A stretch of 64,000 nt of DNA from Desulfobacterales bacterium RIFOXYA12_FULL_46_15 (lineage in GTDB: Bacteria > Desulfobacterota > Desulfobacteria > Desulfobacterales > Desulfobacteraceae): NCBI GenBank assembly GCA_001799395.1, contig MGTJ01000096.1, positions 67,246 to 131,245 on the forward strand. The letters run 5' to 3'. The position numbers were made by a program, and so were the translations under genes. Below the pieces are notes generated by a model. That model saw nothing but the letters and a program-made list of their open reading frames with translations. It was not told where the DNA came from and did not search any database. This document shows, in pieces, positions 53,032 to 59,147 of the stretch (its first letter is position 1; each line of letters begins with the position of its first letter).

Positions 53032-53153
53032 GTAACCATTTCCTGACCCTGCCTCCTTCGCATATATTAATCAGGTTATGGATCAATTCAATTGCCTCTC
53101 TGTATTTATACTTTTAAAATCTTTGAATTGATGACGGGAATTCGTTCTCTTTT

Positions 53154-53177
53154 ATTCCAAATCAATTGTTTTGGAAT
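53154..53177. promoter_or_regulatory. 24 bp near-perfect palindrome upstream of the ECF sigma gene
   Basis: ATTCCAAA (53154-53161) and TTTGGAAT (53170-53177) are exact reverse complements; the central TCAATTGT is also palindromic except for its outer bases, so 22 of 24 positions are symmetrical. It sits between the Ysc84 terminator and the sigma gene. It may be an operator; no factor is known. Confidence 0.5.
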
Positions 53178-53214
53178 TCTTTTGATATCTGTCTGGCAGA
53201 TGGCTTATTTCCAG

Positions 53215-53263
53215 AATAAAAACCGCCCCTTATCCTGAATGGAAATTAACGGACAGGGGCGGT
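53215..53263 (-). terminator. Rho-independent terminator of the Ysc84 gene
   Basis: Read on the minus strand, ACCGCCCCT (53263-53255) pairs exactly with AGGGGCGGT (53230-53222), followed by TTTTTATT. A strong GC-rich stem with T-run, 14 bp after the gene stop. Confidence 0.8.
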
Positions 53264-53276
53264 GAAATTGGATAGA

Positions 53277-54015: not shown

Positions 54016-55146
54016 ATGAAACCAAAAACAAAATACATCCTGTTTTTTCTGCTCCTGGCATCAACGGCAGCCATAGGCCTTTTCCATGCCCTGACACCCG
54101 GGCATATGATTTTTTACCATGATACGTATCGGCGGCTCAGCTATTTTCCCATTGCCGTCGGCGCAGTTTTTTTCGGGCTGTGGGGAGGAATAAGCCTTGC
54201 CGTTGTTTCCTGCCTTGCCTTTGTCCCTCATCTTTTTTTATTCTGGGCAAGGGGACCGGAAGCCTATTACAGCGAATTGTCGGAAATTATGTTTTATCTT
54301 GCCGCCGGGATTGTCATAGGACTGATTTCAAGCCGGGAAAACCGGTTAAGGGAAAAATACAAGACTCTTTCTGAAAAACTGGCCATCTCCTACGAACGCC
54401 TGCACGATCAGGCATCAAGGCTTCTTGAGGCTGAAAAACAGCTTGGTGAGAGTCAAAAGCTTTCCATGCTGGGCCACGTGTCTGCTTCCCTGGCCCATGA
54501 ATTGAAAAATCCCCTGGCTTCCATCAAGGGAGCAGCGGAAATCCTGGCCGATGAATTGCCGCAAGGCCATCCAAAACATGAATTCATTGACATCATGCGC
54601 TCGGAGATTTCAAGACTGAACCATTCGGTGGAAGATGTCCTGAGCTATTGCCGGGGCAGGCAGCAGGCCAACCAAAGCAAACAGGAATCAATTGCAAAGA
54701 TTATCCACCACGTAATCTCTCTGCTGGAAACCCGGTTTGAAGAAAAATCCATAGCCCTTACGGTTCAGGCCGACCCTGAAGATGATTTTTCAACAGATGA
54801 GGCAGCCATGATCCAGGTTTTGATAAACATCCTCCTCAATGCTGTGGATGCAGTCGGAACAAAAGGCAGGATCATGGTCGAGGTTGAACACAATGAGACC
54901 ACCCGGGTCATAAAAATTTCAGATGACGGCCCTGGAATAGATGCCGGTAAAGCCGAAGACGTGTTCCAGTCTTTTGTCACCTTTAAGGAAGGGGGAACCG
55001 GCCTCGGTCTTTCCATTTCAAAACGGATCATTGAAAGCCTGGGCGGAAAAATAGAGATCAGGACATCCCCCCTGGGCGGAGCGCTTTTTTTAATCGCCCT
55101 TCCGGAACAAACCGGTTCCGGAAGTCAGGGAATCACATCTGTGTAA
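54016..55146 (+). CDS. Membrane sensor histidine kinase
   Basis: 376 residues. Three to four N-terminal membrane helices (about 8-110, partly WGGISLAVVSCLAFVPHLFLF) with almost no extracellular domain, a coiled coil, then HisKA with phospho-His in HVSASLAHELKNPLASIKG and an ATPase domain (LINILLNAVDAVG, DDGPGIDAG, GGTGLGLSISKRI). The architecture is that of NtrB/AtoS-like kinases with a membrane-embedded sensor. No response regulator is beside it; the nearest on this strand is the NtrC-type gene far upstream. Confidence 0.91.
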   Translation: MKPKTKYILFFLLLASTAAIGLFHALTPGHMIFYHDTYRRLSYFPIAVGAVFFGLWGGISLAVVSCLAFVPHLFLFWARGPEAYYSELSEIMFYLAAGIVIGLISSRENRLREKYKTLSEKLAISYERLHDQASRLLEAEKQLGESQKLSMLGHVSASLAHELKNPLASIKGAAEILADELPQGHPKHEFIDIMRSEISRLNHSVEDVLSYCRGRQQANQSKQESIAKIIHHVISLLETRFEEKSIALTVQADPEDDFSTDEAAMIQVLINILLNAVDAVGTKGRIMVEVEHNETTRVIKISDDGPGIDAGKAEDVFQSFVTFKEGGTGLGLSISKRIIESLGGKIEIRTSPLGGALFLIALPEQTGSGSQGITSV

Positions 55147-55200: not shown

Positions 55201-56138
55201 CTAATGGGACAGCGAATACTCAAAATATTGATTCTCACAAGGAAGTCCAAAAGCAATATGGATTTTCAGTTCCCCGGGTATCATAATAAATGATGCCCTG
55301 GACATGGAAGCCATTTCCGGCGTTTTTGTATTATCTATGTGATGACAGATGGAATTCGGATGATTCTGGTGATCTGACAGAAAGCTCATCATCTGTTTAG
55401 GGGTAATATTACCGAAAGAATTTGAAATCAGCTCCCTGAGACGGTCTGCACGTCCAAAGGAATATGCATTGTTATGGGGCCCATGGGAGAAATGGTCAGA
55501 TTGGAACAGTTACCGATCCCGGCAGAATTGAGATAATATGTGCAATTGCCTAAAAAACATATAGCCAGTTGTTCCAGCCCATCCCTATGTTTTATATGGA
55601 GAAGGTCGATAGGCGCATCCGGATGCCAGTCAATATTCTGTCCTATCATTGTTATTCCATTTTTTGTTGCCGGTCCTGTGAGTGCAAAAGAAGTGCACAT
55701 CCCTGACAGTTGAGGATAGTTCATGGCAATTTCAAGATAACTCTTAAGCGCAAAAGATTCTTTATCGGTATATGTCTTGAATTGATGAAGCCTTTTCAGT
55801 TTTTCAACTGTTTTCTGAAATCTGACAAGCCGGATAAATTGTTTTGGCGAAACCCCCAATATTTCAAAATATTTTCTTTCAAGTGTCCTGGTGATCACTC
55901 CTAAAAGATTTGCAAGTTCATTTACTTTGATCTGACCGTCGCAGGACTCTATGATCGCTGTTGACCGGCTATATAGTTTATTCTTCATCATCTGTTGAGG
56001 CTCAAGATTACACAGCAGTTTCTCAATGATCCTCTGTCTTGCAAAAAGCCTCTTTTCAGACCAGAGCATTTCACAAAGATCATCCGGCTGCATGCCGGAA
56101 ACCTTAGGAAGCGGAAGAATTTCAATCTCAGTGTTCAT
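55201..56138 (-). pseudogene. Broken fusion of an AraC-type regulator and a C45 acyltransferase-like peptidase
   Basis: The N-terminal 150 residues are the remains of an AraC-family regulator: a helix-turn-helix (VNELANLLGVITRTLERKYF, then GVSPKQFIRLVRFQ), but the second helix-turn-helix stops at YLEIAMNY. The frame runs straight into the N-terminal nucleophile segment of a C45 (penicillin acyltransferase-like) peptidase, CTSFALTGPATKNGITMIGQ, and stops at 55428. In the next frame, from about 55450, the true C-terminus of the same family follows: RLRELISNSFGNITPKQMMS, SICHH, and GLPCENQYFEYSL. The middle of the peptidase, roughly 100 or more residues, is missing. Two gene ends were joined by deletion and one frameshift has since occurred. 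Confidence 0.8.
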
Positions 56139-56150
56139 TGGCTGTGAACT

Positions 56151-59147
56151 TTAAATTTCCTGCTGCAGCGGAAGCCTGATGATAAAATTTGTTCCCTTGC
56201 CCGGAACGGATTCAACCGTTATGCTCCCTTTATGGTTTTCAACAATGATAAAATAAGAGATATACAAACCCAGACCTGTTCCGGCCCCAACGGATTTGGT
56301 GGTGTAAAACGGCTCGAATATCCTTGCCTTCACGGTTTCATCCATACCGGGACCATTATCTTCAATCTCAATCACAACTGAGTTGCCCTCTCTCAAGGTG
56401 GCGATTCTGAATTCCGGCTCCCTGTTCTTCAGATTTTCCATCATGGCCTGGGCACCATTTTTCAGGATATTGAAAAAGACCTGCTGAAGTTTACCCCGGT
56501 CGCAGGGGGTTTCGGGTAAATCAGCATCATAATGGCGCTGGATTTTGATTTTTTTAAAATCCATATGTTTTTTCAGGTCAAAATCCTTGATCACAATACC
56601 CAGGGTCTGATCCAGCACTTTATCAATCCGTTGAAGTGAAAATACACTATCGCTTTTGCGGCTGAAGGTCAGCATATTGGCAACAATATCTGCCGCACGC
56701 CGGCCTGCATCCAGTATGGATCGGGTCATGACATAAATTTTACGCTGCTGAAAATATAAGTGAAGTTTTTCAAGATCAATGCCGATTTCCCGGGCGACCT
56801 TGATATTCTGTTCCATGTCTGGTTTCGTGCGATTTTCAATGATCTGGGCACTCTGAATAATCCCGGCAAGAGGGCTGTTGATTTCATGGGCCATTCCTGC
56901 AGCAAGACCGCCGATGGATTGCATTTTTTCCGTCTGGATCATCATTTCTTCCATATTCACCCGCGTGGTGATATTGTCTATTCTGATCACCGCACCATCT
57001 GTTTTGCTGCTGATCAGCGGATATGCAATCACATCATAAATAAACCGCTCATCATGAATCACTGTTTCCAGCCGTTCTTCCTTTTTTATCTGCCCCAGCT
57101 CAATGGCAGAGAAAACAATGGATTCTTCTTTTTTCAGCAAGGGAAAGACCTGAAACAGATCTTTCCCTTCAACATCCCTGAACCTTTTGCCGGTTAGTTT
57201 TCCGGCTTCGCTGTTCCACAATATCACATGGGCAAACGGATCCACGCCAATGATGACGGAGGGCATGGAATCAATAATATTGGACAGCATGGCTTTTAAG
57301 GACACATTTGAATCTTCAACCGATGATTTGGATTGTTCAAGCTCAAGAATGGATGTTTGGATCGTGTCTGCCATTGAATTAAAGGAACAGCCCAGGGCAC
57401 CCATTTCATCCTGGGATTGGACAGGAAGACGATAATCCATATCTCCTCTCTGAAATTTTGAAATCCCCTTGATCATAGTGGTAATTCTTCTGGTCAGGGC
57501 CGAGGCCATCATTACGGCAACGGCAATCACCAGGACGACCATGATGGCGGTATAACCGGCCAGCCGTACAGCCGTTTCCCGTAGGGAGGTTTCAATCACC
57601 TTCTTATTTTCCATGTTCTGCTTTTCAATGGTTTCAATAAACCGGCCCTCTGTTTCTTTGATCGCCGCTGCCGTTTCATCAGCCGGTCTGTGGAATTCAC
57701 CCACATTGGCGCCAATGGTGACGTATCCGAATCCCCTGGGGCTGTTTTTGTACTGCCCTGTAAAATAGGGGATGGCTGCTGCCGTGGTCAATTTTTTAAG
57801 CCCGCTCCATTCAATCACAAAAGACCCTGACCCGCCGTATTGGGTCAGTTTATGCCATCCGTCACACTGTGGCGCAAAATTCAGATACCGGCAGTCCAGC
57901 CCGACCAGCCCTTTTTGAAGCATTTCTTTTGAAGGTATTTTTGAAAGTGACTGGTGATCGTATTCCGGCAGGGTTTTTAAAAACCCGCCGATATCAAGCC
58001 CGCTGTTTTTAAAATTTTCATAAATCCCTTCCTCAAGCCAGGGAATCGCCGGTTCACCCGTTGCCGGGTCATATCCTGCAATGGAATAATCCCTGGGATG
58101 GGAAATATTACGGCCCATATGGTCCCACATAAAGGCATAATTACCGGAACCTGCGTCCGAGATATCGGAATATCGCTCGCTGGTCGGTACAATATGATCG
58201 GTAAACTCCATGATATGGGTATGATCCAGGGCCAGGGTGATATATCCGGTAATGGTTCCGTTTTGAGTAAGGGGAATAGCCCACCGGACAAGGCCCTGAA
58301 ATCTCCTTCCCACCGGGTTTTCCTTGCCGGCATACCCGGAAGCCTCGGGAAGGAATTCCAACCCCTTCTGCCCTGCCTGTTTTTTTGTATAAGGGCCGAT
58401 CAGGTGTGTCTTTACATAGGCGCCGATCACATCGGAAACATATATCTCCCCCGGCTTGAGACGCTTCAGGTGTTCAAAATAGGTTTCCGCCTTGCAGAAT
58501 GTCCGGTCCCTTTTGGAAATATCCCTTAATTCGCCGGGCAGGATATCAGAGCTTGTGACTTTCATCATTTCCTTTCCCGAAATATCCACATAGGTCATTT
58601 CCAGGTACAGGGGAATGGATTGAACCATTCCTGTTTTCTCCGGGGCCCTGTAATGAAAATCAAGTTCATTATCCTTATTTTCCGCCGTGACGGTCCGGTC
58701 GTCATCCGGATCTCCCACCGATGGTTCCCATATATTTTTTTCTTCATTGAGCACCCAGGGTCTGTGACGGGTAATATTGCGCCTGTGGGCGTCTAAAAAT
58801 GCCTGAAACAGTTTTTTATCAGGCTTGAGCAAAGATGCGGTCCGGATATCAATATCCCGGTCAGATAAAAATGCAGCTACCTTCCTTGCCGTATCCGTTG
58901 CCAAATGCTCAATGGCTTCCCGTGATCTTAAATCCAGTGCCCTGATGGAACTTGACGTGGCAAGGCCTGCTACCTCTTTTGTCGTGCCTGCACTGGTCTG
59001 TGCCATCTCATTGACATGAGTCTCAAGTGTAACCGATAAAGAAGAGATCTCATTCCAGGCAAACCATGCCAGTACGATGAGCGGAATAACCTTTATTAAT
59101 ACGAAAATACCGATCAGTTTATCTCTAATGCTTGCTTTATATCCCAT
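56151..59147 (-). CDS. Large membrane sensor histidine kinase with periplasmic Cache-like region, HAMP and PAS
   Basis: 998 residues. One membrane helix at about 12-32, a very large periplasmic region (about 35-520, Cache-like), a second helix (about 525-548), HAMP (about 550-600; GDMDYRLPVQSQDEMGALG), a PAS domain (about 630-735; IDSMPSVIIGVDPFAHVILW), HisKA with phospho-His in GGLAAGMAHEINSPLAGII and a HATPase (FFNILKNGAQAMM, EDNGPGMDE, GAGTGLGLYISYF). It should sense an extracellular ligand. It ends 12 bp before the AraC/C45 remnant on the same strand, so that locus could once have been its output. Confidence 0.91.
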   Translation of the reverse strand: MGYKASIRDKLIGIFVLIKVIPLIVLAWFAWNEISSLSVTLETHVNEMAQTSAGTTKEVAGLATSSSIRALDLRSREAIEHLATDTARKVAAFLSDRDIDIRTASLLKPDKKLFQAFLDAHRRNITRHRPWVLNEEKNIWEPSVGDPDDDRTVTAENKDNELDFHYRAPEKTGMVQSIPLYLEMTYVDISGKEMMKVTSSDILPGELRDISKRDRTFCKAETYFEHLKRLKPGEIYVSDVIGAYVKTHLIGPYTKKQAGQKGLEFLPEASGYAGKENPVGRRFQGLVRWAIPLTQNGTITGYITLALDHTHIMEFTDHIVPTSERYSDISDAGSGNYAFMWDHMGRNISHPRDYSIAGYDPATGEPAIPWLEEGIYENFKNSGLDIGGFLKTLPEYDHQSLSKIPSKEMLQKGLVGLDCRYLNFAPQCDGWHKLTQYGGSGSFVIEWSGLKKLTTAAAIPYFTGQYKNSPRGFGYVTIGANVGEFHRPADETAAAIKETEGRFIETIEKQNMENKKVIETSLRETAVRLAGYTAIMVVLVIAVAVMMASALTRRITTMIKGISKFQRGDMDYRLPVQSQDEMGALGCSFNSMADTIQTSILELEQSKSSVEDSNVSLKAMLSNIIDSMPSVIIGVDPFAHVILWNSEAGKLTGKRFRDVEGKDLFQVFPLLKKEESIVFSAIELGQIKKEERLETVIHDERFIYDVIAYPLISSKTDGAVIRIDNITTRVNMEEMMIQTEKMQSIGGLAAGMAHEINSPLAGIIQSAQIIENRTKPDMEQNIKVAREIGIDLEKLHLYFQQRKIYVMTRSILDAGRRAADIVANMLTFSRKSDSVFSLQRIDKVLDQTLGIVIKDFDLKKHMDFKKIKIQRHYDADLPETPCDRGKLQQVFFNILKNGAQAMMENLKNREPEFRIATLREGNSVVIEIEDNGPGMDETVKARIFEPFYTTKSVGAGTGLGLYISYFIIVENHKGSITVESVPGKGTNFIIRLPLQQEI

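Follow-up and report, generated by a model that had tools for sequence, protein, structure and literature searches.

The minus strand at positions 55201-56138 of the window, the 64,000-nt stretch of DNA analysed here, encodes parts of an AraC regulator and of a C45 (AAT-like) acyltransferase/hydrolase, fused and broken. The locus very probably represents the pseudogenized remains of an accessory araC-C45 pair, shortened by ordinary deletion-biased neutral decay: an intact homologue is found in a relative, and disabling lesions are found here. The source genome, from a sulfate reducer of the genus Desulfobacula, is a 4.74-Mb draft in 250 contigs. A previous sequence-only reading had described two ORFs, 55428-56138 and 55201-55392, and both are indeed present on the minus strand, between two convergent histidine kinases. 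The features of the locus, compared where possible with the same-genus genome G004, are the following.

54016-55146, plus strand: histidine kinase HK2; in the sister genomes G016 and G017 an NtrC-type regulator follows it
55201-55392, minus strand: smaller ORF, 63 aa; C45 C-terminus in another frame
55214-55458, minus strand: C45 C-terminal block, 183 of 245 nt the same as G004 C45; reads in a different frame from the fused ORF
55428-56138, minus strand: fused open frame, 236 aa; its stop is met in the wrong frame past the C45 deletion
55459-55762, minus strand: C45 block that includes the Cys nucleophile motif (MCTSFALTG...GQNIDWHPD), 232 of 304 nt the same as G004 C45
55763-56111, minus strand: AraC block, linker and first helix-turn-helix (HTH), 231 of 349 nt the same as G004 araC
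56112-56123, minus strand: possible 4-codon nub (EILP) of the AraC N-terminal domain, 11 of 12 nt matching G004
56124-56138, minus strand: start of the araC remnant (MNTEI), first five residues as in G004 AraC; a short, weak match, 10 of 15 nt
56151-59147, minus strand: histidine kinase HK1; in the sister genomes G019 and G005 an OmpR-type regulator and another kinase follow it

The 236-aa frame matches an AraC HTH over its first half and then the C45 nucleophile region. Among the 57 other genomes searched, a single same-genus genome, G004 (Desulfobacula co234_bin15, JABGOU010000050.1; L009/L050), strongly matches both halves. It holds both genes intact, arranged in tandem on one strand in the order seen here: araC (247 aa), 103 bp, C45 (355 aa) and then a flavodoxin/4Fe-4S gene. 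The halves of the remnant match the two adjacent G004 genes with E values of 2.8e-35 and 3.7e-58. Thus the proposal that a deletion had joined two neighbouring genes is borne out, and the sister genome with an intact pair, which had been proposed for comparison, exists. The window shares with G004 the two genes, their order and their strand; the C45 blocks are 81% and 69% identical to the G004 protein and the araC block is 66% identical in DNA. However, the G004 pair is intact and lies among HigBA-like and DUF262-like genes, whereas the remnant lies between two histidine kinases, and the flavodoxin/4Fe-4S gene that adjoins the pair in G004 does not adjoin the remnant.

A dynamic-programming alignment to G004, in which deletions of any length were allowed, resolved the locus into blocks 56111-55763, 55762-55459 and 55458-55214, with 454 and 253 nt of G004 absent between them. 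About 454 nt are lost at the join 55763/55762 (TYTD|KESF), a stretch that takes in the 3' end of araC, the spacer and the 5' end of C45. The AraC portion stops near residue 125 (TYTD, about 55763). The earlier placement of the break at YLEIAMNY is therefore too late, as this segment is already C45: SFALKSYLEIAMNY is C45 sequence, since the intact G004 C45 reads SFALKSYLEISMNY. The large internal part of the peptidase that had been thought absent corresponds to 253 nt of the C45 core (in G004 terms), lost at 55459/55458. As this length is 1 mod 3, the deletion alone explains the change of frame. Hence the C-terminus does continue in another frame, matching G004 C45 residues 272-355, and the separate, later frameshift proposed with it falls away, the 253-nt deletion being itself the frameshift. 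The loss of the AraC N-terminal domain is an additional lesion that the previous reading had not described. Three deletions are firm, and the EILP nub, if genuine, implies a fourth; together these lesions, at least three in number, have removed about half the combined length of the two genes. Because there was a single close intact relative to compare with (69% protein identity), the deletion ends can be placed to within a few nucleotides. G004 carries two near-repeats, ATTCCTTTG and ATTCTTTTG, at the ends of the 253-nt C45 deletion; of random pairs, 0.8% share as much sequence. When every junction was put to the short-repeat test, the C45 core deletion alone stood out and the others were at chance level. 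A preference for in-frame deletions was also considered and dropped, since remnants are noticed through their open frames and the counts were too small.

On the AraC side, the effector domain has gone by one or more deletions right after the start codon. In G004 this N-terminal domain is DUF6597-like, slightly under the cut-off. The short MNTEI and EILP matches suggest two separate upstream deletions, since 87 and 189 nt of G004 sequence are absent on either side of the nub; short as the EILP match is, it is unlikely to be due to chance. The AraC block lacks the second HTH. HTH_18 is matched in the 236-aa ORF over positions 1-42 of 80 (E 7e-4, 20.3 bits, below the cut-off of 33.6), while the intact G004 AraC covers 2-76 of 80 with 67.8 bits. 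The remnant thus does not hold the two helix-turn-helix motifs of the AraC family, that is the whole HTH_18 domain, and a normal AraC regulator would not be expected from it.

The C45 half keeps the Cys nucleophile in its conserved motif, MCTSFALTG, including C109, T110, F112 and A113. Conserved positions were defined as those with the same residue in at least 90% of 21 C45 relatives (n=72); the consensus residue is kept at 40 of the 44 that the remnant covers. The deleted parts hold the other 28 of 72, among them N252, a conserved Asn that aligns with Asn246 of 2x1d, the Penicillium acyltransferase, a residue described as catalytic. This fungal isopenicillin-N acyltransferase is the closest solved relative, at an E value of only 1e-15, and the penicillin-acylase-like or quorum-type hydrolase function suggested in the previous reading is putative for this clade. 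The C-terminal out-of-frame piece matches the same G004 C45 protein over residues 272-355 with E 4e-35, which excludes chance, and the last C45 residues and the stop extend to 55201. In comparison with the C45 family (NF040521; PF03417; 2x1d), the remnant retains the nucleophile motif and many conserved residues, but it lacks the pro-segment (about 85 N-terminal residues deleted), about 84 core residues and the segment with the conserved Asn, and its matches fall under the family cut-offs. No full-length C45/AAT domain above a curated cut-off is found: NF040521 matches the 236-aa ORF over positions 76-160 of 313 (E 1e-9, 38.1 bits, cut-off 85), and a search of the whole genome with Pfam AAT (PF03417) gave zero matches because the pieces are too short. 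An active enzyme would not be expected from this remnant.

The DNA identity of the surviving blocks to G004 is 66-76%. pN/pS values against G004 are 0.254/0.603 for araC, 0.111/0.671 for the C45 N block and 0.159/0.687 for the C45 C block, and the corresponding dN/dS ratios are 0.25, 0.07 and 0.10, which are rough because dS, at 1.2-1.9, is near saturation. The low pN relative to pS and the retained consensus residues indicate that the pieces diverged mostly as working genes, and from these sequence comparisons we take inactivation to be late.

It could be thought that the 236-aa frame encodes a new protein with a function, for instance a small regulator that combines a single AraC HTH with a piece of C45. 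No stop interrupts the frame, which reads through the first joins as it also would under selection for a fusion, and dN/dS is low in the surviving blocks. However, the low ratios mostly mirror the time before the fusion, the AraC part matches no more than the initial half of the HTH profile, and the C45 part is without pro-segment, core and conserved Asn. Moreover, the fused join is absent from all 57 other genomes searched, and a promoter scan found promoter-like sites at chance level. We consider a functional fusion very unlikely; the locus very probably reflects ordinary gene decay, not a new gene. It seems equally improbable that the joins arose in assembly or sequencing and that the organism has an intact pair. 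The draft state of the assembly, in 250 contigs, would allow for this, but the remnant lies well within a contig of 142,855 bases and the positions of the three joins bear no relation to one another. When intact C45 and AraC were used as queries against the genome, the missing segments were not recovered, and apart from this locus the hits were distant paralogues of AraC; with the PF03417 profile and the intact C45 protein, no AAT-family match was found elsewhere in the assembly.

Under deletion-biased decay, an ancestor would have had an intact araC-C45 pair, as G004 still does, and the pair would then, judging from the sequence, have lost its function. In the order that we infer, at least three internal deletions would have shortened it afterwards, in the AraC effector domain, at the araC/C45 boundary and in the C45 core, one of them shifting the frame. 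The C45 core deletion probably arose by slippage between the short near-repeats. Deletion erosion in bacteria is a well known process. In Salmonella pseudogenes, erosion is likewise mainly by deletions, but a single lesion was present in 346 of 378 and few had lost more than 20% of their length (Kuo and Ochman 2010, PMC2916853), so that the lesions here are larger in number and in size.

C45 relatives of the same length as that of G004 are mainly from Firmicutes (such as Syntrophomonas, Clostridium and Sporomusa), at 39-52% identity; the other Desulfobacterota copies show 37-38%. As the Firmicutes proteins are full-length, G004 and not the window has the ancestral length. These identity levels suggest that the version of C45 in G004 and the window may have been acquired horizontally. 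No araC homologues were found beside the Firmicutes C45 relatives at E 1e-4, and consequently the window and G004 are the only documented carriers of the araC-C45 pair. In G004, a reading of the ORFs at L009:3301-8227 places a HigBA-like pair and DUF262-like genes beside araC-C45, surroundings that suggest a putative mobile or defence-type island. What is documented in Desulfobacula is thus the loss of a regulator–acyltransferase pair with a patchy distribution, possibly horizontally acquired. The locus is a clear case of a remnant with several deletions that can be compared with an intact reference. It is also an annotation trap, as the 236-aa frame could be taken for a hypothetical protein of AraC-like or C45-like type even though it is debris.

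The previous reading had also pointed to the two flanking histidine kinases. They show no link to the pair: the operons that hold them in sister genomes are different ones and lack it. In the genome of the window, the NtrC-type regulator of HK2 is on contig C62 (89% identical) and the OmpR-type regulator and second kinase of HK1 are on contig C173 (63%). When the window was compared with sister genomes over 20 kb of DNA, similarity ended at the kinase ends, with HK2 matching G013 up to 55120 and HK1 matching G019 from 56150. Since both kinases are split from neighbours that sister genomes keep, the remnant fills a synteny breakpoint, and the rearrangement at whose junction it lies may have brought in the pair or led to its inactivation.

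A 234-aa ORF next to the displaced regulator on contig C62 (L077:6260-6961) is composed of pieces of a sensor kinase and of a GGDEF/EAL regulator, with 83-88% DNA identity to G013, where the two genes lie more than 3 kb apart. A condensed two-gene remnant is therefore not unique in this genome, and both remnants adjoin ends of a split kinase-regulator operon. It is tempting to propose that this lineage condenses dead genes unusually fast, with repeated internal deletions outpacing point mutation and leaving short fused frames in which segments of two adjacent genes are well preserved. We think this unlikely, and one or two cases are too few to make a new process. The broader value of the locus hinges on how common such remnants are in the genome.

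Elsewhere in the window, a mutY-like glycosylase gene, which in G017 lies between a sigma factor and a YSC84-like gene (L038:1725-2849), is absent at 53032-53276, and no mutY remnant was found in this spacer. The best match elsewhere in the genome is only 26% identical, and the flanking DNA is conserved on both sides of the gap.
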